From Rhizobiales bacterium 64-17 (GTDB lineage Bacteria > Pseudomonadota > Alphaproteobacteria > Rhizobiales > Xanthobacteraceae), in NCBI GenBank assembly GCA_001899285.1, contig MKWA01000002.1:224055-265955 (forward strand): DNA of 41,901 nt. The letters are read 5' to 3'. The position numbers and the translations under genes were made by a program. Shown here in pieces: positions 4,283 through 25,559 of the stretch (position 1 is the stretch's first letter; every line of letters starts with the position of its first letter). The notes beneath the pieces were generated by a model, which ran no database searches, had not been told where the DNA came from, and was given only the letters and a program-made list of their open reading frames with translations.

Positions 4283-4307
4283 AACGTCGCTTCATCGTGT
4301 GCGTTCC
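4283..4307 (-). promoter_or_regulatory. EcfG-type (general stress response) promoter of otsA
   Basis: Read on the minus strand, GGAAC (4307-4303) is followed by exactly 16 bases and then CGTT (4286-4283). This matches the alphaproteobacterial EcfG/RpoE2 consensus GGAAC-N16/17-CGTT. Transcription would start near 4276, giving a leader of about 23 bases before the otsA ATG at 4253. Orientation and position fit otsA exactly. Confidence 0.75.
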
Positions 4308-4340
4308 AAATTTTTGCCGCGATTGCGAAAAAATCGCTGC

Positions 4341-7043
4341 TTATGCGAACAGTGGCGCGGAACTGAGCACGACAGCCGGATCATTGTGCAGAATCTCCGC
4401 GAGAGTGAGCGATCGCTCGCGTGTAAGCTCGTCATTGCGCAGCACATTGTACCGCGGAACTTTTGTTCCACGCGGGATCACGGTCTCTGGTGAGGTTTGC
4501 TGCCGCGAGAAACGGCGAGTGACGATCACCAGCACCTGATGTTGTCGATAGAGTCGCGTAAATGCGACGTAGCGGTCATCCACGAGTGGAACCGGCTGAT
4601 AAGTTCCGAAACGAAACGTATCCGGGAACTTGTTGCGCAGTGTCAGCAAGCGCCGCGTGACATGGAACTTGAAAGCTTCCGAGTCCCACGCGCTGGTCGC
4701 CGCGTCATCGTCGAACAGCGCACGCCGTGCGGCGAAGTCGACCGGCCGGCGATTGTCCGGATCGACCAGCGAGAAATCCCACAGCTCGGTTCCCTGATAG
4801 AAATCGGGAACGCCGGGCAGCGTCGCTTTCAGCACGAGTTGCGACAGGCTCGCCGCCGCGCCGTGGCGGGCTGCGCGTGACGCGAATGCCGACATGGATG
4901 CGATAAACGCCGCATGGTCGGGCGACAAGATGCGGCGCACGAAGGCGTCGAGGCTCTGTTCGTACTCCGCATCGGGATTGGTCCAACTGGTCTCCTGCTT
5001 GCCTTCGCGCGCCGCCTTTCGCGCATAGGCGGCGATACGGTCGCGATAGCGATCGTCGAGGGGGGTGGACAACGGCCAGGTGCCGAGCAACGTCTGATAG
5101 AGCATGTATTCATGCGCGGCCGACGGCATGCGCCGGCCATCGCGAGCCGTGACGGCCACGGCATTGATGTCGCGCCAGTGCGCGACCGCCTCCGTCCACG
5201 CCGGCGCCAACTCCGCGAGCATCAGGATGCGCATCCGCGTATCCTCGCCGCGCTTGGTGTCGTGGGTGGCCGTTGCGGTGAGGCCGTGCGGGGTCGTCTT
5301 CTGCCGCCGCTGCATCAGCGCATGGAAGTCGTCGGTATCGAGAGGCCGCGCATCCGGCGAACCACCGACCTCATTGAGCGCGATCAGCCGCTGGTCGCGG
5401 TAGAACGCCGTATCCTCCAGCGCCTTCGCCATCAACGGGCCGGTGAACTGCTGCAGTCGGAACGCGAACGCGCGGACCCGCGGCGCGCTGTAGCTTGCGT
5501 CTTGCGCCAGATCGAGCGTAACGGCGCCGCGCAGAAATTCAAAGATATCCGGATCGGGTCCGCGCCATCGCTTGCGCGCTCGCGCGATGGTCTGCTCGAT
5601 GATGGTGCGGTCATGCGGCGACGGTCCGGTGCCGGTCACATAGGTCCGGTACACCGGAAATTCTCGCACATAGAGGTCGAGCGCCGCGCGCAGCCGGTCC
5701 TGCGTATAGTCGCGCGTGCTGAAATGGCCGGCGGCGATCCGCGCCAGCGCGCCGGTGAGCACGGTGAACTCGCTCGCCAGCATGGTGGTGAGAACGACGC
5801 CTTTGGCGTCGTCGACCACCTGATGAAACGGCTGGTGTTGTTCGCTGATCTCGTGCCACAGATGGGTGAGGCGAGGCAGACCATCGCCGTCCAGCATCAG
5901 GCGCATGATGGCATTGAGCCACTCGTAGCCCGTCGTTCCGGCGACGCCGGGAAAGCGCGGCAGGGTTTCGTCGCCTTCGAGGATCTTCTCGACAATGATG
6001 TAGAGGTCGGGCTTGCCGAGCTGCCGTGCGAGCTGGTGCAGCCGTCGCGTATATTGCATCGGGTCGCGCAGGCCGTCGATGTGGTCGAGGCGGAGTCCCT
6101 GCAAGCGATCCTCGGCGATCAGCCGCGCGACCAAGGCATGACTGGCGCGGAAGGTGGCGGGGTCTTCCATCCGCAGGCCGGCGAGATCGTTGACGTCGAA
6201 GAACCGGCGATAGTTGATCGCGGAAAACGCCACGCGCCAGAACGCGAGGCGATAATGCTGCCGCTCCAGGAGACGATGCAGCGCGGCGAGCCCATGCGGC
6301 GTATCGGCGGAATAAGCGGTCAAACCGCGGGCGATGATGGCTTCGCCACCGGGAATGGCCGCCAACCGCTCCTTGAACGACGGGGCCTCGCGCCGATCCG
6401 GCGCATGCGGACCATGCTGACTGTCCGCCAGCGCGCGCAACGCACGCCCGGCGTCGGCCTCAGCGGCGCCGGCTGTGGTGACGATCTGGCGCAGGATTTC
6501 CGAATAGCCGGGCGGGCTCACCGGCAGCTTGTGGTCGAAATACCAGACCGCGAAGCTGCCTGTCGCGGCATCATATTTCAGCGTCAGCTCGCCGTCGCGC
6601 AATGCCTCGCCATAGGGCTTGCCGAGGATCGGCAGCAAGACGCCGGGCTGGCGCCGATGCGGCAGCGCATCCCAGGCGATGTCGAACGCGCGCGCATGCG
6701 GCGATTTCGGGCCCCATTCCAGAACGTCGAGCCACCACGCATTGTCGGCAAGGCCAACGCCCATATGGTTGGGGACGAAATCGAGGATCATGCCGAGGCC
6801 GGCCGCGCGCAACGCATCGCTCATGCGCAGAAATCCGGCTTCGCCACCCAGTTCCGGATTGAAGGCGTTGTGATCGACGATGTCGTAGCCATGCGTGCTG
6901 CCGCCGCGCGCCTTGAGGAACGGCGATGCGTAGACGTGCGAAATGCCGAGATCGCGCAGATACGGGACGATTGCCGCAGCGTCGTCGAAGGTGAAGCGGC
7001 TGTTGAATTGCAGCCGATAGGTGGCGCGCGGGATCGCCGTCAT
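4341..7043 (-). CDS. treY: Maltooligosyltrehalose synthase
   Basis: GH13 enzyme of 900 residues that converts the reducing-end alpha-1,4 bond of a maltooligosaccharide into an alpha,alpha-1,1 bond, giving maltooligosyltrehalose for TreZ. Visible motifs: YRLQFN (9-14), HGYDIVDHN (51-59), DFVPNHM (88-94), the nucleophile region GLRLDHIDGL (316-325, Asp320), IIVEKIL (349-355, acid/base Glu352), GTTGYE (369-374), THDTKRGED (593-601) and a late PGVPDFYQGTELWD segment typical of TreY. Length is within the family range. The ATG overlaps the treZ stop by four bases, so translation is coupled. It is the last gene before the gap leading to otsA. Confidence 0.96.
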   Translation of the reverse strand: MTAIPRATYRLQFNSRFTFDDAAAIVPYLRDLGISHVYASPFLKARGGSTHGYDIVDHNAFNPELGGEAGFLRMSDALRAAGLGMILDFVPNHMGVGLADNAWWLDVLEWGPKSPHARAFDIAWDALPHRRQPGVLLPILGKPYGEALRDGELTLKYDAATGSFAVWYFDHKLPVSPPGYSEILRQIVTTAGAAEADAGRALRALADSQHGPHAPDRREAPSFKERLAAIPGGEAIIARGLTAYSADTPHGLAALHRLLERQHYRLAFWRVAFSAINYRRFFDVNDLAGLRMEDPATFRASHALVARLIAEDRLQGLRLDHIDGLRDPMQYTRRLHQLARQLGKPDLYIIVEKILEGDETLPRFPGVAGTTGYEWLNAIMRLMLDGDGLPRLTHLWHEISEQHQPFHQVVDDAKGVVLTTMLASEFTVLTGALARIAAGHFSTRDYTQDRLRAALDLYVREFPVYRTYVTGTGPSPHDRTIIEQTIARARKRWRGPDPDIFEFLRGAVTLDLAQDASYSAPRVRAFAFRLQQFTGPLMAKALEDTAFYRDQRLIALNEVGGSPDARPLDTDDFHALMQRRQKTTPHGLTATATHDTKRGEDTRMRILMLAELAPAWTEAVAHWRDINAVAVTARDGRRMPSAAHEYMLYQTLLGTWPLSTPLDDRYRDRIAAYARKAAREGKQETSWTNPDAEYEQSLDAFVRRILSPDHAAFIASMSAFASRAARHGAAASLSQLVLKATLPGVPDFYQGTELWDFSLVDPDNRRPVDFAARRALFDDDAATSAWDSEAFKFHVTRRLLTLRNKFPDTFRFGTYQPVPLVDDRYVAFTRLYRQHQVLVIVTRRFSRQQTSPETVIPRGTKVPRYNVLRNDELTRERSLTLAEILHNDPAVVLSSAPLFA

Positions 7044-8797
7044 GGCTTGCTCTCGATCGCGGCGTGAACCTCCCAGGGCTGCATCCGGTCACCGGGCGCG
7101 CCACCCCAGATCCAGCGCGAGGATGCGGCCGAAGGTGGCGTCGGCGCAGGGTCGTGCGACAGATTGGCGAGGATGCGTAGCGAAGGCGCGCCGGGCCAGC
7201 GCGCCTCGAGCACGGCGTTGCGGATGATGGCGCGTGCTTTGCCCGCGATCAGATGCGGGATGATCGGTACGATATCCCGGTGCCGCACGGCGAGAAGGCG
7301 GCGCACCAGCGCGAGCCGCTCGCGATGCGGCGTTTTGTTCAGCGTTGACCAGTCGAGCGTCGCGCTGTCGACCGTGGTGCGCGCCAGCGGGTCGGGGACA
7401 GCCCTTGCCGAGGCATAGGCATCGGCGAATTCGCGTCGGCGCCCGTCGCGCACCGCGTCGGCAAGATCGCCGCTGAAATCGCAGAAGAACGGAAACGGTT
7501 CGGTCGCGCCCCATTCGTCGCCCATGAACAGCAACGGCGGCGACGGTGCGAGCAGCAGCACCGACAGTGCACACACCAGTTCCTCGGGCGCCGCCAGAAT
7601 CGTCAGCCGCTCGCCGCGCGCGCGGTTGCCGATCTGGTCGTGGTTCTGCAGGAAATCGACGAACGCCGTCGGCGGCAGGGTTCGGCTCGGCTCGCCGCGG
7701 GTGGCGCCCTCGCGATGCGCCGACGGTTGCCCCTGATAGACAAAGCCCTCGGCCAGCGCGCGGGCGATGGCCGAGGCTGGCTGCGCGTAGTCCTGATAAT
7801 AGCCGCCGGTCTCGGCGGTCAGCAGGACGTGCCAGGCATGATGGAAGTCATCGTTCCATTGCGCGCGATAGGTGCCCGGCGCTCCGGCAGGGTCGAGCAT
7901 CGCGGCGCGGTTGTCGTCGTTTTCCAGCACGAGATGAATTTGCCGGTCGTGTTCACGAGCAAGCGCGGCGACTGCGAGGCTGAGATCGCGCAGCAACTCC
8001 GGTTCACCGGGCATGACGATGGCATGCACGGCGTCGAGCCGCAGCCCGTCGAACCGGTAGTCTCGCAGCCAATGAAGCGCGTTCTCGATCGCGAAGGCAC
8101 GGACTTCGGGGACGCGATAATCGATGGCGCTGCCCCACGGCGTCTGCGCCTCGGTGAAAAACGACGGTGCGTAACGACCGAGATAATTCCCGTCCGGACC
8201 GAAATGGTTATAGACGACATCGAGAAACACCATCAGGCCGCGCTGATGCGCAGCGTCGATCAACGCCTTGAGGTCGTCCGGGCGGCCGTAGCGATGATCC
8301 GGCGCGTAAGGCAGCACGCCGTCATAGCCCCAGTTCCAGCGGCCGGGAAAATCCGCGAGCGGCATCAGCTCGATTGCGGTGATCCCGGTTTCGACCAGAT
8401 GGTCGAGTTTGTCGATCGCGGCACGATAAGTGCCTTCCGGCGTGAAGGTGCCGACATGCAATTCGAGGAAGACCGACGTCTCCCACGGCCGGCCGTGCCA
8501 GTCGTTCGCCATCCAGCGATAGCCATGGTCGATGACCTCGCTCGGTCCGTGCACGTCATCGGGTTGAAACGGCGAAGCCGGGTCCGGCACATCGAGTTCG
8601 CCGTCAATGCGAAAGGTGTAAAGCGTTCCGGCCGCAGCCCCGGGCACAACCAGCCGATACCATCCGTCCTCCGAGCGCGTCATGGGCCGCGTCTTGCCCT
8701 CACTGACGAGAGCGACGTGCCGCGCCGCCGGCGCCCACAGCCGGAACGTCACGCCCTCGGCGCTCAACAGGGGACCGAACCCGCCCGTGCCCGTCAT
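7040..8797 (-). CDS. treZ: Maltooligosyltrehalose trehalohydrolase
   Basis: GH13 enzyme of 585 residues that releases free trehalose from maltooligosyltrehalose made by TreY. An N-terminal beta-sandwich (about 1-105, with FRLWAPAARHV) precedes the barrel. Motifs: ELHVGTFTPEGTY (112-124), GYDGVLPYAPDHRYG (157-171), DVVYNHFGPDGNYL (193-206), nucleophile region GLRLDAVHAI (251-260, Asp255), LENDDN (291-296, Glu292) and NHDQIGNR (385-392, Asp387). These are characteristic of TreZ rather than glycogen branching enzyme. It overlaps glgX upstream by four bases (ATGA) and treY downstream by four, in the same operon. Confidence 0.96.
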   Translation of the reverse strand: MTGTGGFGPLLSAEGVTFRLWAPAARHVALVSEGKTRPMTRSEDGWYRLVVPGAAAGTLYTFRIDGELDVPDPASPFQPDDVHGPSEVIDHGYRWMANDWHGRPWETSVFLELHVGTFTPEGTYRAAIDKLDHLVETGITAIELMPLADFPGRWNWGYDGVLPYAPDHRYGRPDDLKALIDAAHQRGLMVFLDVVYNHFGPDGNYLGRYAPSFFTEAQTPWGSAIDYRVPEVRAFAIENALHWLRDYRFDGLRLDAVHAIVMPGEPELLRDLSLAVAALAREHDRQIHLVLENDDNRAAMLDPAGAPGTYRAQWNDDFHHAWHVLLTAETGGYYQDYAQPASAIARALAEGFVYQGQPSAHREGATRGEPSRTLPPTAFVDFLQNHDQIGNRARGERLTILAAPEELVCALSVLLLAPSPPLLFMGDEWGATEPFPFFCDFSGDLADAVRDGRRREFADAYASARAVPDPLARTTVDSATLDWSTLNKTPHRERLALVRRLLAVRHRDIVPIIPHLIAGKARAIIRNAVLEARWPGAPSLRILANLSHDPAPTPPSAASSRWIWGGAPGDRMQPWEVHAAIESKP

Positions 8798-10864
8798 GGT
8801 TCGCCCGCGAACGCCATCACCGCGCCGGCCGGCGCGTCGTAGGAGGCGCCGCGCTCGAGCGTGAACGGCGCAAACGGATCATCCTGCATGGTGCAGAGAA
8901 TGCGCGACCAGCGGGCGACGTTCGGCCAATCCGGCGCGGTCACGGCGACCGCATTGGCGGCGCCATTGAGGACGAGCAGCAGCGGATGGCCGGTGTCATC
9001 GACCGGCCCCAGCACATAAGCGAGAAAGCGGGCATCGGGAAAGCTCCAGTCGCTCTCGGTCATGGCCGTCCCGGCGGGCGTCAACCACATCACGTCATGG
9101 GTGCCGTCGCCGCGCTCGCCCTGCAGCCAGCGGATCGGCTTGAGCTGCGGGAATGTCTGCCGCAACCGCGTGAGCTGTCCAACGAAATCGGTCATGTCGT
9201 CGGGGCTGCCGGCGGCGCTCCAGTCGATCCAGCCGGTCTCGTTGTCCTGACAATAGGTGTTGTTGTTGCCGTCCTGGCTGTTGCCGACTTCGTCACCGGC
9301 GAGCATCAGCGGCACGCCTTGCGCCAGCATCAGGCAGGCGAGCTGGTTTCGGCGCAGCCGCCGGCGGCAGTCGAGAATCGCGGAGTCCACGGTTGCACCC
9401 TCGGCGCCGCAGTTGGTGCTCAGATTGTCGTCGGAGCCGTCGCGGTTGTCCTCGCCGTTTGCCTCGTTGTGTTTGTGTTCGTAGCTGACGAGATCGGCGA
9501 GGGTGAAGCCGTCATGCACCGTGACATGGTTGATGCTGGCGCGCGGCCCGCGGTTGTCGTGGTTGAACTGTGGCGCCGAGCCGGTCATGGCGCTCGCCAC
9601 ATCGCCGAGAATATCGCCGTCGCCGCGCCAGTAGCGGCGCAGCGCCGAGCGGTATTTGTCGTTCCATTCCGACCAGCCGTTCGGAAAGCCGCCGACCTGA
9701 TAGCCGCCCATGCCGAGATCCCACGGTTCGGCGATCATCTTGATGCCGGCGAGCACGGGATCCTGCCGGATCGCGGCGAAAAACGGCGCGTTGCGGTCGA
9801 ACGCCGGCATGCGCCCGAGTTCGGTGGCGAGATCGAACCGGAATCCGTCCACATGAAAGGTCTCGACCCAGTGGCGCAGCGAGTCGAGCACCATTTGCGT
9901 GACGCGCGGATGCGCGAGCTTCAGCGCGTTGCCGGTGCCGGTGACGTTATCATAGAAGCGCGGATTGTCGGGCATCAGCCAGTAATAAGAGGCATTGTCG
10001 ATGCCGCGATAACACAGCGTCGGGCCGAGATGGTTGCCTTCGGCGGTGTGGTTGTAGACTACGTCGAGGATCACTTCGATGCCCGCGTCATGGAGCGCGG
10101 CGACGGTGCTGCGGAATTCGTGCGCCGCGCTCTCGCGCGCATAGCGCGGCTCGGGCGCAAAGAAGATCAGGCTGTTATAGCCCCAGTAGTTGTGCAGGTT
10201 GCGGTCGACAAGCTGGCGATCGTCGAGAAACAGATGGATCGGCAGAAGCTCGATCGCGGTGACGCCGAGCCGCCGCAGATGCTTGATCGCCGCGGGATCG
10301 GCGAGGCCGCGATAGGTGCCGCGCAACTCCTCGGGAACATCGTGGCGCGTGCGCGTCAGGCCTTTGACATGCGCTTCATAGATGATTGTGTCTTCCCACG
10401 GAACACGCGGGCCGCCGGTCCGCTCCCAGGTATGCGCGGGGTCCACGACAACGGACTTGTACATGTGACGCGCGTTGTCGCGCCGGTCGAAGGCATAGTC
10501 CTCGCTCTTGTGGCCGACGCGATACGCAAGATGCGCGTCGGTCCAGGCAAAATTCCCGCCGAGCTGCCGGCTATAGGGATCGACCAGCAGCTTGTTCGGA
10601 TTGAATCGGTGCCCGGCATCCGGGTCGTAGGGGCCATGGACGCGGTAGCCGTAGAGTTGTCCCGGCGTGACGTTCGACAGATAGCCATGCCAGATGTCTT
10701 CGGTGCGCTCGGGCAGCGCGATGCGCTTGGTCTCGCGGCGGCCTTCCTTGTCGAACAGACACAGTTCGACTTTGGTGGCGTTGGCTGAGAACAGCGCGAA
10801 GTTCGTGCCGCGCCCGTCCCAGGTCGCGCCAAGCGGATAGGGCGATCCGGCGCCAAGCCGGCCG

Positions 10865-13020
<2,156 letters not shown>

Positions 13021-13024
<4 letters not shown>

Positions 13025-16000: not shown

Positions 16001-16308
16001 TGCATGAAGCGCCGGAAATCCTTCATGGTGCCGAATGCCGGATTGATGTCGCCATAGTCGGCGATGTCGTAGCCGTCGTCGCGGCCTGGGCTCGGATAGA
16101 AAGGCAGCAGCCATAGCGTGGTGACGCCAAGCTCCTGCAGATAGTCGAGCCGCTGACTCAAACCCGAGAAATCGCCGACGCCATCGCCATTGGAGTCGGC
16201 AAAGGCCTTGACGTGAAGCTGATAGATGATCGCGTCCTTGTACCAGAGGTCATCATCCTGCTGCGCGGCAGGCGTCGAGGTTGGCGATACGGACGACATC
16301 ATATTCAC
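13021..16308 (-). CDS. treS: Trehalose synthase fused to maltokinase (TreS-Mak)
   Basis: Bifunctional protein of 1095 residues. Residues about 20-560 are a GH13_16 trehalose synthase that interconverts trehalose and maltose: [16 protein letters not shown] (67-82), [10 protein letters not shown] (214-223, nucleophile Asp218), LLAEANQW (257-264, Glu260), RNHDEL (323-328) and [14 protein letters not shown] (383-396). Residues about 580-1095 are a maltokinase (Mak/Pep2), with [14 protein letters not shown] (599-612), the catalytic loop HGDLHLGQ (943-950, Asp945) and metal-binding DFEG (962-965). Together they turn trehalose into maltose-1-phosphate, the GlgE donor. The first codon is GTG at 16308, with AAGG seven bases upstream overlapping the glgE stop. 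In mycobacteria these are separate proteins. Confidence 0.95.
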
Positions 16309-16317
16309 GGCGAGACC

Positions 16318-18318
16318 TTAGGCGTAACAACGGAACAAGAGGGCGGGGTCGTTGGACGTATCAATGCGCAACCGGATGCCGCCCCATTCGAGAAGATGGC
16401 GCTCGCCGGTGACGAGATTTTCGATGGCGCGGATCGGCGCGCGCGCATCTTCCGGCCCGATCTGGATGTCGCCGAAATGGAACCAGAATTCATGTGGGCC
16501 GGGCGATAGCGCGATGGCGACCGCGACCGCATTGGCATGGTCGACCGACTCCTTGACGAAGCCGATCACTTGCGGATCGTCGATCTGCACGAAGGTCAGA
16601 TCATTGGTCTGCAGCAACGCCGGGTTGTCACGGCGGATACGGTTGAGCGCCGCGATATAGGGCTTGATGTTGCCCGGTCTGCTCCAGTCGCGGACCTTGA
16701 TCTCGTATTTTTCTGAATCGAGATATTCCTCGCGACCCGGCAGCGGCTCATGCTCAATCAGCTCGAAGCCGTTATAGATGCCGTAGTTCGATGACAGCGT
16801 GGCCGCGAGCGCGAACCGTGCCTTGAACAGCCACGCCTCGCCGGTCTGCAACTGCACCGGCAGGATATCCGGCGTAGTGACGAAGAAGTTTGCTCGGAAA
16901 TATTCCCGCGTCGGGAAACTCGTCAGCTCGGTCAGGTATTCCTGCAATTCCGCCTTGGTCGTGCGCCAGGTGAAATAGCTGTAGGACTGGTTGAATCCGA
17001 TCTTGGCGAGGCCCTTCATCACCTTCGGGCGGGTGAAGGCTTCCGACAGGAAGATCACGCTTGGCTCGCGCAGCCGCACCTCGCGGATCATCCATTCCCA
17101 GAACGGAAACGGCTTGGTGTGCGGATTGTCGACACGGAAGATGTGCACGCCCTGTTTCACCCAGAACAGGATCACGTCGCGCAACGCTTCCCACAGCGCG
17201 ATCCGGTCGGCGCAATAGAAATCCGGATTGACGATGTCCTCGTATTTCTTCGGCGGATTCTCCGCATAGCGGATGCTGCCGTCGCTGCGGCGGGTGAACC
17301 AGTCGGGATGCTGTTTCAGCCACGGATGATCCGGCGAGCACTGGATCGCGAAGTCGAGCGCCACCTGCAGGCCGTGTTGGCGACAGGCGGCGACAAAACG
17401 CCGGAAATCGTCGAGCGTGCCGAGTTCGGGATGCACCGCGTCGTGGCCGCCATGCGTACTGCCGATTGCGTACATGCTGCCGGGATCGCCCGGCGCGGCC
17501 TTCACCGCGTTGTTACGGCCCTTGCGGTTGGTCTCGCCGATCGGATGGATCGGCGGCAGATAGACGACGTCGAAACCGAGCGTCGCGATATCCGGCAGCC
17601 GGGCGATGCAATCGTCGAACGTCCCGTGGCGGCCGGCGACCGTGCCCTGACTGCGCGGCACCATCTCGTACCACGCACCGGCGCGCGCGATCGGCGGATC
17701 GACCAGCAGCGGAATAACGCCGCGAGTCAAATCCGGACGCTGCGCCGGCGTCCGCAATGTGTCGGCGAGAGCATCATCGAGCAATGCGGACGGATCGCTA
17801 TCCTGCTGCGCGGTTCGGATGGCTTGCGATACGCGCGGGTCTTGTCCCGCCAACTGGCGGGCCAGCATGATCCCTTCATCGCGTTCGAGCGTCGTCGGCA
17901 GGCCCGCCTTGCGCTTGAGCTGGATTTCTTTGCGCCAGGTGGCGAACTGATCGGACCACGCCTCGACGGTCAGCAGATAGTAGCCCGGCTGCTGCGGCGT
18001 GAACCGCGCGTGCCAGCGATCATTGCTGACGAACTCCATCGGCACGCGCTGCCAGTCGGGGTGATCTTCGCGGCGCCACAGCAAGGCGGCGGCGAGCACA
18101 TCATGTCCCTCGCGAAAAATATCCGCCCAGATGTCGACCGGTTCGCCGGCGATCCGTTTGGCCGGATAGCGGCCGCCATCAATGCTCGGATAGATATCCT
18201 CGATGCGGAACCGCGGGCCGGTCGGATCGGCAGGCGCGACATCCAGCGCCGCGACGCCGGGGGAAATCTCAGCAATGTCCGGAGGTTGGGCTGCCGAGGC
18301 TGCCCATGGCTGCCGCAT
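16318..18318 (-). CDS. glgE: Alpha-1,4-glucan:maltose-1-phosphate maltosyltransferase
   Basis: GH13_3 enzyme of 666 residues that adds maltosyl units from maltose-1-phosphate to the end of an alpha-1,4-glucan. The N-terminal sandwich domain contains FRIEDIYPSIDGG (37-49). Other hallmarks are YEMVPRSQG (217-225), PPIHPIGETNRKGRNN (255-270), the nucleophile segment FRVDNPHTKP (394-403, Asp397), FLSEAFTRP (423-431, acid/base Glu426) and VTTPDI (480-485, Asp484). These line up with Streptomyces GlgE numbering with a constant shift of three. The frame stays open to 18852, but the ATG at 18318 has AGGA upstream, gives the normal length and clears malQ on the other strand. It leads the operon. Confidence 0.96.
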   Translation of the reverse strand: MRQPWAASAAQPPDIAEISPGVAALDVAPADPTGPRFRIEDIYPSIDGGRYPAKRIAGEPVDIWADIFREGHDVLAAALLWRREDHPDWQRVPMEFVSNDRWHARFTPQQPGYYLLTVEAWSDQFATWRKEIQLKRKAGLPTTLERDEGIMLARQLAGQDPRVSQAIRTAQQDSDPSALLDDALADTLRTPAQRPDLTRGVIPLLVDPPIARAGAWYEMVPRSQGTVAGRHGTFDDCIARLPDIATLGFDVVYLPPIHPIGETNRKGRNNAVKAAPGDPGSMYAIGSTHGGHDAVHPELGTLDDFRRFVAACRQHGLQVALDFAIQCSPDHPWLKQHPDWFTRRSDGSIRYAENPPKKYEDIVNPDFYCADRIALWEALRDVILFWVKQGVHIFRVDNPHTKPFPFWEWMIREVRLREPSVIFLSEAFTRPKVMKGLAKIGFNQSYSYFTWRTTKAELQEYLTELTSFPTREYFRANFFVTTPDILPVQLQTGEAWLFKARFALAATLSSNYGIYNGFELIEHEPLPGREEYLDSEKYEIKVRDWSRPGNIKPYIAALNRIRRDNPALLQTNDLTFVQIDDPQVIGFVKESVDHANAVAVAIALSPGPHEFWFHFGDIQIGPEDARAPIRAIENLVTGERHLLEWGGIRLRIDTSNDPALLFRCYA

Positions 18319-18348
18319 GGTTCTTGTTCCTGTAATGGGCCATAGGAG

Positions 18349-18373
18349 AACACGCTGCGCTGCAATCGGTTCC
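18349..18373 (-). promoter_or_regulatory. Probable EcfG-type promoter of the glgE operon
   Basis: On the minus strand GGAAC (18373-18369) is followed by 16 bases and TGTT (18352-18349), one mismatch from the EcfG consensus GGAAC-N16/17-CGTT and with the same spacing as at otsA and otsB. The predicted start, near 18342, is about 24 bases before the glgE ATG. The GGAAC is one arm of a palindrome (18369-18383, GTTCCGCTGCGGAAC), so a GGAAC also faces malQ. No acceptable -10 is found at N16 or N17 on that side (CTCT, TCTT). Inference from pattern only. Confidence 0.5.
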
Positions 18374-18432
18374 GCTGCGGAACGGAATGCGGGGTGCCGC
18401 TCTTGTGAAGAGGCGAAGAATAAAGGGTTTCC

Positions 18433-20193
18433 ATGGTCGATCCGGCCGAGGCGGCACGATGGGGCATCGCGCCGGGGTTTCATGACGTGTTTGGCGTGTG
18501 GCACGAGACGACGCCGCGGGCGCGCGAGGCATTGACGACGGCAATCGGCCGCGGGCGTATATCCCCGGCGGATGCTGTGCAGTCCGGCGATGCGACCCGT
18601 GCCTATCAATGCGGCGACCGCCGCATGTGGGGGCTGGCCGTGCAGCTTTATGCGCTGCGGTCGTCCCGCAACTGGGGCCACGGCGATTTTGCCGATCTCG
18701 CGGCGCTGGTCGACATGCTCGCGCCGATGGGTTGCAGCGCAATCGGACTCAATCCGCTGCATGCGCTGTTCCTCGAGCGGCCGGAAGATGCCAGCCCGTA
18801 TTCGCCGAACAGCCGCATCTTCCTCAATCCGCTCTATATCGCTGTCGATCACGTGCCGGATTGTCCGGATGCGGCGTCGCTGGGCATCGCCGCAAAGTTG
18901 GCCGAGGTCCGCGCAGCCGATCAGGTCCGCTATGCCGATGTGGCCGCATTAAAGTTGTCGGCGTTGCGGGCCGGATATCTGCGCTTTCGGAATGACGCAC
19001 ATGATGCGCGGCGCGGCGACTTCGAGACGTATCGTGCGGAAGGGGGCGAGGCGCTGCAGCGTTTCGCCGCGTTCGAGGTATTGCGCCGCCGGTGTGGGCC
19101 CGCGCCATGGTGGGAGTGGCCGCCGGATTGGCGGCGGCCGTCATCACCGGCGATCGCGCGGTTGTTCGACGATCCGACGCCTGAAGACGATCCGCTGTTT
19201 CACATCTATTTGCAGTGGCTTGCGGCGCGTCAGTTGCAGCAGTGTCAGGACCACGCGCGGCGGCGGGGGATGCCGATCGGCCTCTATATCGATCTCGCGG
19301 TCGGCGTCGATCCGGCGGGCGCCGATGCGTGGAGCGCGCAGGACGAGATGCTGACCGGCGTGTCGGTTGGTGCGCCGCCGGACGAATACAACCGCGCCGG
19401 GCAGAACTGGGGGCTGACCGGTTACAATCCGCAGGCGCTGATCGCGTCACACGGCGAGCCGCTGCGTCGGATGCTCGATGCCGTCATGCGTCATGCCGGC
19501 GCGATCCGCATCGATCATATACTCGGATTGATGCGACTTTTTCTCATTCCGCGCGGGACGACGGCCGCCGACGGCGCCTATGTCGGCTATCCATTCGCGC
19601 TGTTGCTCGACGTGATCGTCGACGAGAGCCTGCGGCGGTGCTGTGTCGTCATCGGCGAGGATCTCGGCACCGTGCCGGACGGTTTCCGCGAAGCGCTCGC
19701 GCGGCGTGGCCTGTGGTCTTATCAGGTGATGCTGTTCGAGCGCGAGCATGGCGGCGGCTTCCGTCATCCGTCGCATTATCGTGCCGACGCGCTGACCACC
19801 TTCAACACCCACGATCTGCCGACCTTCGCCGGCTGGATCACGGGCCACGATCTGCGCACGAAGCGCGCGCTGGATATCGATCCGGGCGAAAGCGACGAGG
19901 CGCGCGCACATTCACGATCCATGCTGGCCGCCGCTATCCGCGGCATGGGCGAGGGGATCGATGGTGTCGCCGCGTTTCTGGCGCAGACTCCGGCGCGGCT
20001 GGTGATGGTGGCGCTTGAGGACGTGCTGGGTCTTGAAGATCAGGTCAACATTCCCGGCACGACCAGCGAGCATCCCAACTGGCGGCGGCGCGTGCCGCTC
20101 GACGTGGACGCGCTGGCTCGACACGAAGGCTTGAAAAGCGTCGCGGCGATCTTCGCTCAGGCCGGCCGCGCGCCCGATTCCGCGAACGACTGA
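18433..20193 (+). CDS. malQ: 4-alpha-glucanotransferase (amylomaltase)
   Basis: GH77 enzyme of 586 residues that transfers alpha-1,4-glucan segments between maltooligosaccharides and releases glucose. It is transcribed divergently from glgE. Motifs: LYALRSSRNWGHGDF (72-86), SPYSPNSR (121-128), GAPPDEYNRAGQNWG (313-327), the nucleophile segment AIRIDHILGL (357-366, Asp361), VIGEDLG (406-412, acid/base Glu409) and NTHDLPT (458-464, Asp461). The ATG has an AAAGGG about six bases upstream. Its 3' end overlaps the convergent PfkB kinase gene by 37 bases. In this locus it would lengthen short oligosaccharides left by GlgP or TreZ so that TreY, GlgP or GlgE can use them. Confidence 0.95.
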   Translation: MVDPAEAARWGIAPGFHDVFGVWHETTPRAREALTTAIGRGRISPADAVQSGDATRAYQCGDRRMWGLAVQLYALRSSRNWGHGDFADLAALVDMLAPMGCSAIGLNPLHALFLERPEDASPYSPNSRIFLNPLYIAVDHVPDCPDAASLGIAAKLAEVRAADQVRYADVAALKLSALRAGYLRFRNDAHDARRGDFETYRAEGGEALQRFAAFEVLRRRCGPAPWWEWPPDWRRPSSPAIARLFDDPTPEDDPLFHIYLQWLAARQLQQCQDHARRRGMPIGLYIDLAVGVDPAGADAWSAQDEMLTGVSVGAPPDEYNRAGQNWGLTGYNPQALIASHGEPLRRMLDAVMRHAGAIRIDHILGLMRLFLIPRGTTAADGAYVGYPFALLLDVIVDESLRRCCVVIGEDLGTVPDGFREALARRGLWSYQVMLFEREHGGGFRHPSHYRADALTTFNTHDLPTFAGWITGHDLRTKRALDIDPGESDEARAHSRSMLAAAIRGMGEGIDGVAAFLAQTPARLVMVALEDVLGLEDQVNIPGTTSEHPNWRRRVPLDVDALARHEGLKSVAAIFAQAGRAPDSAND

Positions 20194-21083
20194 CGCATCC
20201 GCGCGATATCGGCCTGCGTCGGCAGACCGGCTTCGTTGCCGAGCTTCTGCACCTTGAAGGCGGAGGCGGCGGACGCGAAGTTGAAGTGCTCGCTCCAAGC
20301 CTCCTGCGGCCGGGCGAGACGCGACCACAGATAAGCACCATGGAAGATGTCGCCCGCGCCGCTGGTGTCGATGACCTTGTCCGAGGGGACGGCGAGGGCG
20401 GGTGTCACCTTGTCGCCACTGTCACCCTCGTACCAGAGCAGGCCGTACTCGCCGCGCGTGACGCCGCCGACCTGGCAGCCGCATTGGCGAAGATAATCGA
20501 GCATCTGCGCGCCGGAGAGATTCATCTGTTCGCAGAACCGCTCCGAGACGATGGCGACATCGATAAATTTCAACACCGCGTCGGTGTTGTGGCGCACGCT
20601 GCCCCCGTCGAGCGAGGTGAGGACACCCGCCTCGCGACACAGCCGCGCGTAGTGCAAAGCGGCGTCCGGCTGATGGCCGTCGAGATGCAGGCCGGCGAGA
20701 CCACGGACGTCGATCTGCGGATACGGGTCGAGATAGTCGTCGTCGCGGCAGCGCACGATCGCGCGCTTGCCGTGGTTCGGCATGATGAAGGACAGCGACG
20801 ATTCCCTGACGGCGCGGGGATGGATACCGACGTCGTAGCGTTCGGCCATTTCCAGGAACATGCGGCCGAGCCAGTCGTCCGCATGGGTGGCGATCAGATC
20901 GACCGCCATCCCGCCTTCGGCCAGCTTGGCGCAGCAGAACGCCGCCGTGACCGCATTGCCGCCGAACGATACGGCATAATCCTGCGCAACGTATTTCTCG
21001 TCGCCGGTCGGAATCCGATCGGTGAGGAACGTGATGTCGATATAGGTGTGGCCGATAAACAGCGTGCGTAATCGCTCCGTCAT
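20157..21083 (-). CDS. PfkB-family carbohydrate kinase of unknown substrate
   Basis: A 308-residue ribokinase-fold kinase. The substrate-side glycine motif GGNAVTAA is at 41-48 and the ATP/anion-hole signature DTSGAGD is at 239-245, with Asp245 as predicted catalytic base. VTRGEYG (208-214) matches the nucleotide-binding strand-turn. Length is usual for the family. The substrate cannot be named from sequence; adenosine, fructose or ribose kinases all share these motifs. It is the last gene of the otsB-ROK-glgP operon and overlaps glgP by four bases (ATGA), so a role in sugar salvage next to glycogen breakdown is an inference from position. The 3' end runs 37 bases into malQ on the opposite strand. 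Confidence 0.88.
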   Translation of the reverse strand: MTERLRTLFIGHTYIDITFLTDRIPTGDEKYVAQDYAVSFGGNAVTAAFCCAKLAEGGMAVDLIATHADDWLGRMFLEMAERYDVGIHPRAVRESSLSFIMPNHGKRAIVRCRDDDYLDPYPQIDVRGLAGLHLDGHQPDAALHYARLCREAGVLTSLDGGSVRHNTDAVLKFIDVAIVSERFCEQMNLSGAQMLDYLRQCGCQVGGVTRGEYGLLWYEGDSGDKVTPALAVPSDKVIDTSGAGDIFHGAYLWSRLARPQEAWSEHFNFASAASAFKVQKLGNEAGLPTQADIARMRQSFAESGARPA

Positions 21084-23539
21084 GCCGTCACCGGAACCCG
21101 CCAGATGTCGTCCGCATAATCACGAATCGCACGGTCGGACGAGAACCAGCCCATGCGCGCGGTGTTGAGGACGCTCGACGGCCACCACGTGTCGCTATCG
21201 CGCCAGCGTTCATCGAGCATGCGCTGCGCGGCCCAATAGGTGGAAAAGTCGGCGGCAACCATGAAAGGATCATGATCGAGAAGGGATGCGACGATCGGAG
21301 CGTATCGCGTCGGATCGTCGGGGGACAGTTCGCCGCTTTCAAGCGTGTCGATCACGCCGGCAAGCTCGGGACCGACCGCCTGCTCGCCGGCGAAGCGATC
21401 CCGACGCCGGGCCGCGACCTCGGCCGCCGTCAGACCGAAGATGACGACATTGTCGGCACCGACATGATCGCGAATTTCCACGGTCGCGCCGTCAAGCGTG
21501 CCGATGGTGATGGCCCCGTTAAGCGCCAGCTTCATGTTGCCGGTGCCGGAGGCTTCCATGCCGGCGGTCGAAATCTGTTCCGACACGTCCGCCGCGCCGA
21601 CGATGCGCGAGGCGATCTCGACGCTGTAATTGGCAACGAAGACGAGTTTGAGCCGGTCGCCGGTCACTGGATCGTCGTTGATCGTTTTTGCCACGTCGTG
21701 CGCCAGCTTGACGATGAGCTTCGCGCGTTCATAGCTCCCGGCGGCCTTGCCGGCAAAGATCTTCACCCGGCCAGGCCAATCGCGCTGCGGCGCCGCGCGC
21801 ATGGCGCGCCAGAGCGCGATCGTCTCCAGAATATTGAGCAACTGCCGCTTGTATTCGTGGATGCGCTTGATCTGCACGTCGAACATCGCGTCGGGATCGA
21901 CCGTGACACCGACCGAGGCTCGCAGGATGTCAGCAAGCGCAAGCTTGTTCTCATGGCGCACGGCGCGATAGCGCGCCACGAATGCTTTGTCGTGCGCTAG
22001 CGGCTCCAGCCGCCGCAGGGACGCGGGATCGTCGAAGACGCGTGGGCCGAGTTCGTCGCGAATGAGCGCGGTCAGTCCGGAATTGGCTTCATAGAGCCAG
22101 CGGCGGAAGCTGATGCCATTGGTCTTGTTGATAATCCGCGTCGGCGCAACCTTGGCGAGCGCGGCGAACACCGTGTCGCGCATCAGCTTAGTGTGCAGCG
22201 CCGACACGCCATTCACCGCGTGCGAACCGATGAAGGCGAGATGTCCCATGCGCACGCGCTGCTCGCCGGGTTCGTGGATCAGCGAGATCGCCGCGACCAG
22301 ATCGGCGTCGGTGTGTCCGGCCGCCACCGCTTCGTGCAGATGCAGCCAGTTAATCAGGTAGATGATCTGCAGATGCCGCGGCAGTAGCCGACTGAGCAAA
22401 GCCACCGGCCAGCTTTCCAGCGCCTCCGGCAGCAGGGTGTGGTTGGTGTAGCTGAGTGTCGCGCGGGTCACGTCCCAGGCGCGTTTCCAGGAAAATCCGT
22501 GTTCGTCGACGAGAATGCGCATCAATTCGGCAACGGCGATGGCGGGATGCGTGTCGTTGAGTTGTACGGCCGCGTGATCGGCGAGATTGTTGAGGGTGTC
22601 GTGCTCCGTCAGGTGACGGTGGATCAGGTCCTGCAGCGAGGCGGAGGTGAAAAAGAACTCCTGCCGCAGACGCAGCTCTTGCCCCTCGGGGGTGGAGTCG
22701 TCCGGATACAGCACGTCATTGATCGCCTGCGCGCGCGCGAATGCCTCGGTCGTCGGACCTTCGTCGCCACGGCCAAGCGCGAGCAACTGGATCGCCGCCG
22801 CCGGCTGCGCGCGCCACAGCCGCAGCGTGTTGGCATGCCGGCCGCCCCAACCAGGGATCAGCACGTCGTGCGCGGTCGCGGTGATGGTTTCCGCCGGATA
22901 CCAGACGGCCGGCGCGGTTTCCTGGTCGCCGCCGGCATATTCCACGGCGCCGCCAAAATGGATCGGGTAGGCGGTATCGGCGCGCGGAAGCTCCCACGGC
23001 GTGCCGTGCGCGAGCCAGTTGTCCGGATACTCCGATTGCCAGCCATCATGGAAACGCTGCTCGAATAGTCCGTGTTCGTAACGGATGCCGTAGCCGAACG
23101 CCGGGATGCCGAGCGCCGCCATGCTGTCGAGATAGCAGGCGGCGAGGCGGCCCAGTCCGCCGCTGCCGAGTCCGGGGTCTGGTTCGCACAACCGCAACTG
23201 ATCGAGATCCTTGCCGAAGCCGGCAACCGCCTCGCGCATTGCATCGAGCAGGCCGAGATTGCCGAGCGTGTCGATCAGCAGTTTGCCGACCAGGAATTCG
23301 ATCGAGAGATAGTAGACACGTTTGGCCTTGCGCTGCGTCGCGCTGCGTGCGCTTTGCATCCACACGTCGATGGCGCGATCCCGCGCCGCCAGCGCGACCG
23401 CCGTGTACCATTCACGATCGGTCGCCATTTCCGGTGTCGTGCCGAGCGCATAAGCGAGTTTGGTCACGATCGCCTCGCGCAGCGCGCGGACGGCATTGTC
23501 CGCCTGCGTCTGGTGGCGAAGGGTCTGGCGAGACTGCAT
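21080..23539 (-). CDS. glgP: Glycogen/maltodextrin phosphorylase
   Basis: GT35 phosphorylase of 819 residues that removes glucose-1-phosphate from the non-reducing ends of alpha-1,4-glucan using pyridoxal phosphate. Numbering from the chosen ATG: YYLSIEFLVG (76-85), EPDPGLGSGGLGRLA (119-133), QLNDTHPA (326-333), RIINKTNGISFRRW (468-481), IKRIHEYKRQ (557-566) and the PLP site EASGTGNMKLALNG (662-675) with the Schiff-base Lys670. The ATG at 23539 has GAGG about nine bases upstream and is preferred over the ATG eight codons earlier (23563), which has no ribosome binding site. It lies 36 bases after the ROK-like kinase gene and overlaps the PfkB gene by four. Confidence 0.95.
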   Translation of the reverse strand: MQSRQTLRHQTQADNAVRALREAIVTKLAYALGTTPEMATDREWYTAVALAARDRAIDVWMQSARSATQRKAKRVYYLSIEFLVGKLLIDTLGNLGLLDAMREAVAGFGKDLDQLRLCEPDPGLGSGGLGRLAACYLDSMAALGIPAFGYGIRYEHGLFEQRFHDGWQSEYPDNWLAHGTPWELPRADTAYPIHFGGAVEYAGGDQETAPAVWYPAETITATAHDVLIPGWGGRHANTLRLWRAQPAAAIQLLALGRGDEGPTTEAFARAQAINDVLYPDDSTPEGQELRLRQEFFFTSASLQDLIHRHLTEHDTLNNLADHAAVQLNDTHPAIAVAELMRILVDEHGFSWKRAWDVTRATLSYTNHTLLPEALESWPVALLSRLLPRHLQIIYLINWLHLHEAVAAGHTDADLVAAISLIHEPGEQRVRMGHLAFIGSHAVNGVSALHTKLMRDTVFAALAKVAPTRIINKTNGISFRRWLYEANSGLTALIRDELGPRVFDDPASLRRLEPLAHDKAFVARYRAVRHENKLALADILRASVGVTVDPDAMFDVQIKRIHEYKRQLLNILETIALWRAMRAAPQRDWPGRVKIFAGKAAGSYERAKLIVKLAHDVAKTINDDPVTGDRLKLVFVANYSVEIASRIVGAADVSEQISTAGMEASGTGNMKLALNGAITIGTLDGATVEIRDHVGADNVVIFGLTAAEVAARRRDRFAGEQAVGPELAGVIDTLESGELSPDDPTRYAPIVASLLDHDPFMVAADFSTYWAAQRMLDERWRDSDTWWPSSVLNTARMGWFSSDRAIRDYADDIWRVPVTA

Positions 23540-23575
23540 CGGCCGTGTCCTCACCGGTAACATGCGCGGCCCGTG

Positions 23576-24640
23576 TCAGGATTTACGGTTGCTGAACCGC
23601 GCATTGCCGAGGCCCGTGCCGATGGTCAGGACGCCCCAGCCGGCGACATCCCGCATGAAGGGGAGCTGGCTCAGACCTTGCACCACGGCGTCATTGTGCA
23701 TCAACACGGTCGTCTCCTGATCCTCGATGGATGGAATGAGCGCGCACAGATTCTCCGGCAGATGAAAATCCTTTCCGGACCAGTTGCCGGGCAGGTTCTG
23801 CGCGCCGCGATCGATCGAACCGTCGCGTTCGATCACGCCGGGGCAACCGATCCCGATAAAAGGGGCAAGCTCGATTTTCTCCTTCCTGGCAGACGCAATC
23901 ATCTTCTTGAGCATGTCGGAAAGTTTCTCGACTGCGGCGTCGCGCTTGATTTTGTCATCCGCATGGCGCCACAGCACGGATTTCCACACTTTCGCCTTTT
24001 CCAGCGTCGATGATTTCCTCTGATTGAGTTCCACGACGCCAGCGCGGATGTTGGTGCCGCCGATGTCGACGGCGAGAATCGCGTCGTGTCCTCGAAATAC
24101 CCAGGCCGGGGCGAGGTGCACCGCGCCGATCAGTCCGGCTTCATCCGGATGATGCCGGATCGGCACCAGTTCGACGTCGATTCCATCCTCGTGCAGCAGC
24201 AATGTCGACCGATGAATCGCGATCTCGCCGGCACGGCTTTGCCGCATGCCGCCTCCGACGGCGATGCGTTCGGTATCCTGCCATGCTCTGGTTTTGAGGA
24301 ATCGTTTGACGACCACTGTGAGCTCTTGCGCGAATTGCTCGACGGCGGTGTGGACGACGGCCGCCGCGCGCGGATCGTCGTTGATCAGCAGATCGTCGAT
24401 GGCTTTCTTGCTGATCTCGTCGGTGTCCGCATCGCCCACCGGATCGTCGCCGCTCGCCTGACGCTGTGTTTTGCGCACATCGTCGAGAATGTCGCGGAAT
24501 GCCTGCTTGTTGGCGCGGTCGCCGATGAAGCCATCGCCGTCGCGGATTTCGATATTGTAGGAATCGACAATCACCGCCGGCAGTTGCGACGTGCCATGTC
24601 CGGTGATCACGTCTCTTTTCTCTTTGGAATCGCCGCCCAT
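23576..24640 (-). CDS. ROK-like sugar kinase with circularly permuted motif order
   Basis: A 354-residue protein with every ROK landmark but in permuted order. Residues about 1-176 look like the C-terminal half of a ROK kinase, ending in IAVGGGM (126-132) and DEAGLIGAVHL (166-176). Then comes what is normally the N-terminus: phosphate loop DIGGTNIRAG (192-201), GIGCPGVIERDG (263-274), NLPGNW (282-287), catalytic NDA (316-318) and the second phosphate loop IGTGLGN (340-346), a few residues before the stop. The zinc CxCGxxGC motif is absent. All active-site pieces are present, so it is probably active; glucose is a plausible substrate given glgP next door. The ATG at 24640 (GGA upstream) is preferred to an in-frame GTG at 24664. 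Confidence 0.8.
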   Translation of the reverse strand: MGGDSKEKRDVITGHGTSQLPAVIVDSYNIEIRDGDGFIGDRANKQAFRDILDDVRKTQRQASGDDPVGDADTDEISKKAIDDLLINDDPRAAAVVHTAVEQFAQELTVVVKRFLKTRAWQDTERIAVGGGMRQSRAGEIAIHRSTLLLHEDGIDVELVPIRHHPDEAGLIGAVHLAPAWVFRGHDAILAVDIGGTNIRAGVVELNQRKSSTLEKAKVWKSVLWRHADDKIKRDAAVEKLSDMLKKMIASARKEKIELAPFIGIGCPGVIERDGSIDRGAQNLPGNWSGKDFHLPENLCALIPSIEDQETTVLMHNDAVVQGLSQLPFMRDVAGWGVLTIGTGLGNARFSNRKS

Positions 24641-24687
24641 TCCCAGATCCGTTGTTCGTGTCACCGCGCAAACAGAGCGTGTGATCT

Positions 24688-25509
24688 TCAGGAGTGATAG
24701 GCTGTTGCGGCCGGCGCCGTGGCAGCGGACCGCTCGACCAATTCCTCCGCCGCGCGCGCGAGCCAGTCGCGCACCGCATGCGGATCGTCGAAATATCCGT
24801 CCGTGCCGGCAATCCTGCGGCCGACCGAATAACCGAAGCCGCGATAGCGCGGCATGATGGGAAACACCGTCTCGTCGGTCACGTCGTCGCCGATGAAGAC
24901 CGGCCGGCGCCCTCGAAATGGCGGCTGGTTCATCAGATATTCAACACCGGTCGCTTTGGTCAGTCCGGCCGGCTTCACTTCGACGACGAATTTGCCGAGG
25001 ATCAAATCAACGGCGCCGGGCGGCAGACGCTCCTGAATGGCCTGCGCCGTGGCGATCACCTTCGGTCCCAGCTCCGGTGCCAGACGGTAGTGCAGCGCCA
25101 GCGCATAACCCTTGTCTTCGACCAGAACGCCTTTTCCGAGTTTTCCGATGATCGCGAAATCGCGCTTGATCGGAGCAGGAAGAGGCGGCGGCGCAACCCC
25201 GTGATCGGTCGAGATGTCGATGCGCAATTCCGCGCCATGACCGCCGACGGCGGGGAGGACCAGCGGTGAAAACACCAGATCGATATCGGAGACAACCCGG
25301 CCGCTGACGAAAGCCACGGCGCCGCCTAGCGCCCTGTGCAGTGCGCGCAGCGTTTGGATCAACTCGGGTGACGCCCACACTTCGCGCGGCGTCGGGGCGA
25401 AGTCGAGCAGCGTGCCGTCGATATCGAGCAGCAGCGCCGTCGAGCTTGGCGCAAGAGGAAGAATCCGGTCTGCATCGATCGAATCCGGGGGCATGACCGG
25501 TCCGTTCAT
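24688..25509 (-). CDS. otsB: Trehalose-6-phosphate phosphatase
   Basis: HAD-superfamily phosphatase of 273 residues that dephosphorylates trehalose-6-phosphate made by OtsA. Motif I is DIDGT (29-33, nucleophile Asp29). VSGR (68-71) and GGHGAE (89-94) are typical of OtsB. Motif III lysines are around VKPAGLTKATG (178-188), and motif IV is GDDVTDE (207-213). The reading frame is open nine codons upstream, but the ATG at 25509 has GGAG five bases before it and is chosen. It is the first gene of a minus-strand operon with the ROK-like kinase, glgP and the PfkB kinase. An EcfG-type promoter lies 26 bases upstream. Confidence 0.96.
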   Translation of the reverse strand: MNGPVMPPDSIDADRILPLAPSSTALLLDIDGTLLDFAPTPREVWASPELIQTLRALHRALGGAVAFVSGRVVSDIDLVFSPLVLPAVGGHGAELRIDISTDHGVAPPPLPAPIKRDFAIIGKLGKGVLVEDKGYALALHYRLAPELGPKVIATAQAIQERLPPGAVDLILGKFVVEVKPAGLTKATGVEYLMNQPPFRGRRPVFIGDDVTDETVFPIMPRYRGFGYSVGRRIAGTDGYFDDPHAVRDWLARAAEELVERSAATAPAATAYHS

Positions 25510-25534
25510 TCGCGCTCCATTGCAATGCACAGCC

Positions 25535-25559
25535 AACGCAACGCAGTGCGAAAAGTTCC
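25535..25559 (-). promoter_or_regulatory. EcfG-type (general stress response) promoter of otsB operon
   Basis: On the minus strand GGAAC (25559-25555) is followed by exactly 16 bases and CGTT (25538-25535), a full match to the EcfG consensus and the same spacing as the otsA promoter. The start would be near 25528, about 19 bases before the otsB ATG, leaving just enough room for its GGAG. Because otsB leads the operon, the ROK-like kinase, glgP and PfkB genes would be included. Confidence 0.75.

Follow-up and report, generated by a model that had tools for sequence, protein, structure and literature searches.

The question raised by this locus is whether two partner genes that lie 21 kb apart, otsA (trehalose-6-phosphate synthase) and otsB (trehalose-6-phosphate phosphatase), are controlled together through matching promoters. 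Both lie on the minus strand of a 41,901-nucleotide stretch of DNA from Rhizobiales bacterium 64-17 (contig MKWA01000002.1, positions 224,055 to 265,955), which was analysed as a whole and is referred to here as the window. A preliminary description had proposed that EcfG, an extracytoplasmic function (ECF) sigma factor, exerts stress control over otsA and over an operon consisting of otsB, a ROK kinase gene, glgP and a PfkB kinase gene. Regulators, motif placement and orthologues all support this proposal at the level of sequence and comparison, and the boxes before otsA and otsB are very probably promoters for sigma-EcfG (ECF15), the sigma factor of the general stress response in alphaproteobacteria. 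The four features concerned are as follows.

4283 to 4307, minus strand: EcfG-type promoter box of otsA, GGAAC-N16-CGTT, from a pattern scan (NGTT form in 39/39 sampled orthologues)
2820 to 4253, minus strand: otsA, trehalose-6-phosphate synthase (TIGR02400, E 2.5e-166, 553.9 bits, just below the cut-off of 564.85)
25535 to 25559, minus strand: EcfG-type promoter box of otsB, GGAAC-N16-CGTT (in 12/14 relatives, the otsCB/otsB unit is headed by such a box)
24688 to 25509, minus strand: otsB, trehalose-6-phosphate phosphatase (TIGR00685 above cut-off; PF02358)

Both boxes were recovered where the preliminary description had placed them. The otsA box, GGAACGCACACGATGAAGCGACGTT (4307 to 4283), and the otsB box, GGAACTTTTCGCACTGCGTTGCGTT (25559 to 25535), each consist of a GGAAC −35 element, a spacer of exactly 16 nucleotides (nt) and a CGTT −10 element, which is the arrangement of a sigma-EcfG (ECF15) promoter. 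Their closeness to the start codons was also borne out, with 29 nt separating the otsA box from the ATG at 4253 and 25 nt separating the otsB box from an in-frame ATG at 25509. A TTG start at 25536, given for otsB by the mechanical open reading frame call, overlaps the box, and the ATG was preferred. The stop codon of treY, the gene preceding otsA, is found 33 nt upstream of the otsA box, which lies within the 87-nt gap between the two genes and is therefore non-coding, near the start codon and, as described below, kept before orthologues. The pairing of OtsA and OtsB as partner enzymes agrees with their profile matches (TIGR02400, just under its cut-off, for the former; TIGR00685 and PF02358 for the latter). 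A simple consensus scan, which is weak evidence, revealed no sigma-70-like promoter near otsA or otsB.

EcfG, NepR and PhyR are all encoded in the same genome, where a nepR gene (PF18557, 62 bits) adjoins an ECF sigma factor gene and a divergent phyR, and where the sigma protein beside nepR exceeds the cut-offs of both PRK12540 and PRK12547. A GGAAC-N16-TGTT box is located upstream of nepR-ecfG, 63 nt before the inferred nepR ATG, and further strict boxes lie ahead of small genes neighbouring this pair. Elsewhere in the genome, boxes precede genes for ferritin/Dps-like, GCS2-family, PepSY and DUF6496 products; these, together with a glycine-zipper lipoprotein gene that also follows a box, are of kinds found in EcfG regulons. 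Another box precedes a gene whose product carries an LNHRVKN stretch and may be read as an HWE-type histidine kinase; no Pfam match was obtained for its first 90 residues.

Given these boxes, it was considered whether an ECF sigma factor other than EcfG, with a similar −35 sequence, might use them. Seven further ECF-like matches were detected in the genome, the best being 41% identical to EcfG and followed by a gene whose product looks like a membrane anti-sigma factor, not NepR. However, the promoter region of the genome's own nepR-ecfG pair is itself of the form GGAAC-N16-TGTT, and NepR was detected in 37 of the 39 genomes with an otsA box (36 over the cut-off), including 30/30 of those that are complete and clean, the two genomes lacking a match being 69% and 74% complete. 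Furthermore, papers on Rhizobium etli and Sphingopyxis granuli give the EcfG motif as GGAAC-N16-CGTT (PMC3892343, PMC7083833). Use of the boxes by another ECF factor was consequently judged very unlikely, and EcfG was retained as their sigma factor. The 41%-identical sigma gene (L211, G000:C1 near 173357) is situated close to a contig end.

A second alternative was that two of the dozens of background matches in the genome simply happened to fall before otsA and otsB. Within the window, GGAAC-N15..18-CGTT gave five matches against a shuffle mean of 1.24, with at least five being reached in 2 of 100 shuffles. Two of the five represent one self-complementary place, at 77 to 105, that requires an 18-nt spacer and was set aside. 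A 17-nt spacing is also accepted for EcfG promoters, and the genome-wide scan suggested in the preliminary description was run with GGAAC-N16/17-CGTT, returning 113 matches compared with 79 for the same pattern reversed. Many single matches are therefore background, and a window match at 10940 to 10965 looks like one of these. The preliminary description had also quoted a chance of 1 in 262,144, which is of the same order as the genome density per spacing; a single match proves little, but both boxes directly precede the two partner genes, and a stretch of 100 nt is expected to contain only about 0.0009 to 0.0012 matches.

The genome-wide matches were also found to be concentrated at promoter positions. 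The first 30 matches of each pattern in contig order were compared, those of the motif including the window's three strict sites. Twenty of the 30 motif sites lay outside called genes, as opposed to 3/30 reversed-pattern sites (Fisher P 1e-5), and a same-strand start was present within 150 nt of 14/30 and 3/30, respectively (Fisher P 0.003). With the window's own three sites removed, 18/27 motif sites lay outside called genes and 11/27 had a same-strand start. Genes were called with a simple codon-based caller trained on 14 window genes, which is crude and placed the otsA start too far in (4145). GGAAC-N16/17-CGTT thus marks real promoters in this genome, alongside background matches.

Conservation, another check suggested beforehand, gave a uniform result for otsA. 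GGAAC-N16-NGTT was present within 160 nt upstream in all 39 sampled orthologues of the window-type OtsA, while the reversed pattern was present in none. These loci comprised the window's own plus sets of 10 and 28 picked by match score (54-100% identical), the set of 28 coming from a search that gave a match in 221 of 391 family genomes; they extend at most about 1.5 kb upstream, and one reaches only 152 nt. The first −10 base was T in 20, C in 16, G in 2 and A in 1. Other spacings within 300 nt were rare among the 38 non-self loci (N14 in 2, N15 in 0, N17 in 1, N18 in 0 and N19 in 4). As the box was kept in every sampled orthologue, chance is untenable as its explanation at otsA.

It was also possible that otsA is mainly read through from the genes before it, its own box being a minor or internal promoter. 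In the window, otsA closes a row of genes that all run in one direction, glgE-treS/maltokinase-glgB-glgX-treZ-treY-otsA, the head of which carries an EcfG-type box of its own (see below); otsA follows treY on the same strand across the 87-nt gap, in which no terminator-like hairpin turned up in a simple scan. The box, however, stays with otsA across different neighbours, the gene upstream being treY in 4 of the 39 loci, otsB in 14 and neither of these, as far as detected, in 21, an indication that the box itself is under selection. Read-through as the main source of otsA transcripts was therefore regarded as unlikely, although otsA may additionally be read through from treY.

At the other box, otsB is followed by three genes on the same strand.

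23576 to 24664, minus strand: ROK-type sugar kinase homologue, second gene of the presumed otsB operon (PF00480, two segments)
21080 to 23563, minus strand: glgP, glycogen/alpha-glucan phosphorylase, third gene of the presumed operon (TIGR02093 above cut-off)
20157 to 21083, minus strand: PfkB-family sugar kinase, last gene of the presumed operon (PF00294)

Successive genes are separated by 23 nt and 12 nt and then overlap by 4 nt, a spacing that makes the four-gene operon anticipated in the preliminary description credible. No otsC match was found in the window, nor in the genome at E 1e-20. Among the 14 relatives fetched, by comparison, 13 have otsC ahead of otsB, and in 11 of the 13 a box is found 91-221 nt upstream of the first otsC match; the sole relative without otsC has a box before otsB. 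A box was accordingly seen at the head of the otsCB or otsB unit in 12/14 relatives against a background of 0.017 per 300 nt, with a −10 element of CGTT in seven and GGTT in five. With the otsB unit enriched in this way, and the otsA box kept throughout, coincidence is an extremely unlikely account of the two window boxes.

The ROK-like protein itself appears to be circularly permuted. Profile positions 191-292 of the ROK family align to its residues 80-186 (E 0.0024, below the family cut-off) and PF00480 positions 2-142 to its residues 197-360. Eight relatives align with it end to end at 57-61% identity; when their N-terminal halves were compared with Pfam, a weak ROK match was obtained in 2/5 and none in 3/5. 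A single-sequence structure prediction for the protein was uninformative (mean predicted local distance difference test score of 33).

Unexpectedly, the otsA box is conserved in more than its two recognition elements. Across 16 representatives (one or few per genus), GGAAC and GTT reached 2.0 bits, and box positions 12-17 (GATGAA) carried 0.8-1.3 bits per position compared with 0.1-0.6 in the 15 nt upstream; positions 7-8 and 27-28 carried 0.7-0.9 bits. ATGAA was in register in 32/39 orthologues and 10/16 representatives, as opposed to 1/30 N16 sites of this genome (the one before otsA) and 0/12 sites heading otsC or otsB units, and the spacer was unconserved across the 30 genomic N16 sites. 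GATGAA could be a second, otsA-specific signal on top of general-stress control, either a binding site for an extra regulator or a DNA feature that adjusts EcfG activity, and would then travel with otsA through genome rearrangements; this idea is put forward tentatively and is rather improbable, shared ancestry being the simplest and plain alternative. Transcription is expected to start downstream of the element, which should therefore not form a leader reading frame.

The remaining features of the window include a third box, which the preliminary description had missed.

4341 to 7043, minus strand: treY (TIGR02401 above cut-off)
7040 to 8797, minus strand: treZ (TIGR02402 above cut-off)
8794 to 10911, minus strand: glgX, debranching enzyme, start codon uncertain (TIGR02100 above cut-off)
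10865 to 13024, minus strand: glgB, branching enzyme (TIGR01515 above cut-off)
10940 to 10965, minus strand: GGAAC-N17-CGTT match in the 3' end of glgB, coding-constrained, with codons kept in congeners; no promoter is claimed
13021 to 16308, minus strand: treS fused to maltokinase (TIGR02456 and TIGR02457 above cut-off)
16318 to 18318, minus strand: glgE, maltose-1-phosphate maltosyltransferase (PF11896; start at 18318, mechanical start at 18852 rejected)
18349 to 18373, minus strand: third EcfG-type box, probable, GGAAC-N16-TGTT, in the divergent glgE-malQ gap, 30 nt before the glgE ATG
18433 to 20193, plus strand: malQ, 4-alpha-glucanotransferase, divergent from glgE (PF02446)

The third box, GGAACCGATTGCAGCGCAGCGTGTT (18373 to 18349, minus strand), has the −10 element TGTT and had been hidden by the mechanical glgE start at 18852, the N-terminus of which lies antisense to malQ. 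It is probably an EcfG-type promoter heading the row glgE-treS-glgB-glgX-treZ-treY and perhaps otsA. Two congeners (G011 and G022; loci L154 and L156) share the otsA-to-malQ gene order of the window at 51-74% protein identity and have a box at the same place before glgE, with the −10 element GGTT. Among 30 glgE loci (the window's own plus the best-scoring; 75 of 149 genomes had a match), a same-strand box was found within 350 nt before glgE in 12 of the 29 others, three of the 12 being CGTT. The N17 match at 10965 to 10940, 28 nt before a possible glgX start, was rejected as a glgX promoter. It falls within the glgB coding sequence, and its conservation is explained by GlgB, as the codons of L153, L154 and L156 read alike (G-N-x-G-x-V-S-x-V).

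Several observations weigh against the assignment of these boxes to EcfG or limit its reach. To the seven further ECF-like matches and the large genomic background of the motif (113 matches against 79 reversed) is added a −10 element other than CGTT in 23 of the 39 otsA orthologues. The canonical OtsA type, about 45% identical to that of the window, has a box within 300 nt in only 3/19 loci (L044-L062), and strong conservation is therefore limited to window-type OtsA. For otsB, a box within 300 nt directly upstream was present in 10/41 non-self loci, five of these ten lying inside otsC; the sample was of 44 loci including the window's own and two duplicate genomes, 12 with a box, and was reduced to 10/41 by their removal, while the binomial probability calculated for these loci took 11/41, one locus with two sites having been counted twice, and such probabilities are too small, since members of the same genus share sites by descent. 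Two of the 14 relatives fetched have no box before otsC, and the spacers of the unit-head boxes differ between genera, so that the otsB-unit box recurs in function and is not one site by descent. Conservation for otsB gives a mixed picture, with a box at the head of the unit in 12/14 relatives but seldom directly before otsB, and not as a single conserved site. The two congeners mentioned above encode both OtsA types: the one found in the window follows treY, and the canonical one lies beside otsB elsewhere in the genome.

Further points of this kind concern glgE. No same-strand box within 350 nt was found in 17 of the 29 other loci, and on the opposite strand of the gap, within 300 nt, an N16 box was present in 18/29 (13 with CGTT) and an N17 box in one. 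These opposite-strand boxes (L165-L193) point to malQ, or to otsA in L173 and L193, and their greater number makes the direction towards glgE less certain. In L172 and L174, the same-strand and opposite-strand matches are one near-palindrome, and the GGTT matches therefore deserve less weight. The gap upstream of glgE is thus a place of EcfG-type boxes pointing both ways, more often away from glgE, and the glgE sites across genera are not one site by descent.

With these points taken into account, sigma-EcfG promoters at otsA and otsB remain the preferred reading. The partner switch between PhyR, NepR and EcfG is established in related bacteria. Under stress, phosphorylated PhyR would sequester NepR and free EcfG, and RNA polymerase carrying EcfG would initiate a few bases beyond CGTT, so that the transcripts of otsA and of otsB-ROK-glgP-pfkB would have short leaders. 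The box before glgE, probably the weaker of the three, would increase expression of glgE-treS-glgB-glgX-treZ-treY, and transcripts might continue into otsA. The analysis shows the boxes with their position and conservation, the regulator genes and the concentration of the motif at promoter positions in this genome, whereas binding by the sigma factor, the points at which transcripts begin, their induction by stress, the extent of the operons and the action of the partner switch here are inferred. The regulon of otsA and the otsB operon outlined in the preliminary description is thus supported by sequence and comparison, but is probably wider, taking in the glgE-to-treY row via the third box. 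With EcfG boxes on otsA, the otsB unit and the glgE row, the OtsAB, TreS and TreYZ routes would respond together.

Control of trehalose genes by EcfG in Rhizobiales, mentioned in the preliminary description, is published for Bradyrhizobium diazoefficiens, in which otsCB, otsA and treS are under sigma-EcfG control (Ledermann et al. 2021, PMC8092242). As there, otsB and otsA of the window belong to separate units, each very probably under the general stress response, here by separate EcfG-type boxes; treS, a member of the glgE row here, is EcfG-controlled in that species too. Sampled family relatives with an otsCB-otsA arrangement have boxes before otsC in 11/13 and before otsA in 13/13. Unlike the otsCB unit described for that species, the window otsB lies 21 kb from otsA, has no otsC ahead of it, follows its box directly and heads a row with the ROK-like protein, glgP and the PfkB kinase, while otsA comes after treY and so concludes the row that begins with glgE-treS-glgB-glgX-treZ. 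The wiring is therefore already known in B. diazoefficiens and is found here with a rearranged gene order. The window boxes of otsA and otsB are identical in −35 element, spacing and −10 element to the motif given for R. etli and S. granuli in the papers cited above, and the variants TGTT and GGTT at glgE and in orthologues match −10 boxes listed there as frequent for EcfG of Sphingopyxis (PMC7083833). The GATGAA-like conserved spacer element of the otsA promoters, in contrast, is a difference from that motif.

For a specialist, these results are a confirmation and not a surprise, what is new being the spacer element of otsA and an otsB-ROK-glgP-pfkB unit that is split off and lacks otsC. Judging by the third box, the regulon in this genome probably extends to the glycogen-based routes (GlgE/TreS and TreYZ). 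As far as sequence comparison can indicate, otsA is firmly established under stress control in this family, with the EcfG-type box staying in place while the neighbouring genes (treY, otsB and others) change.

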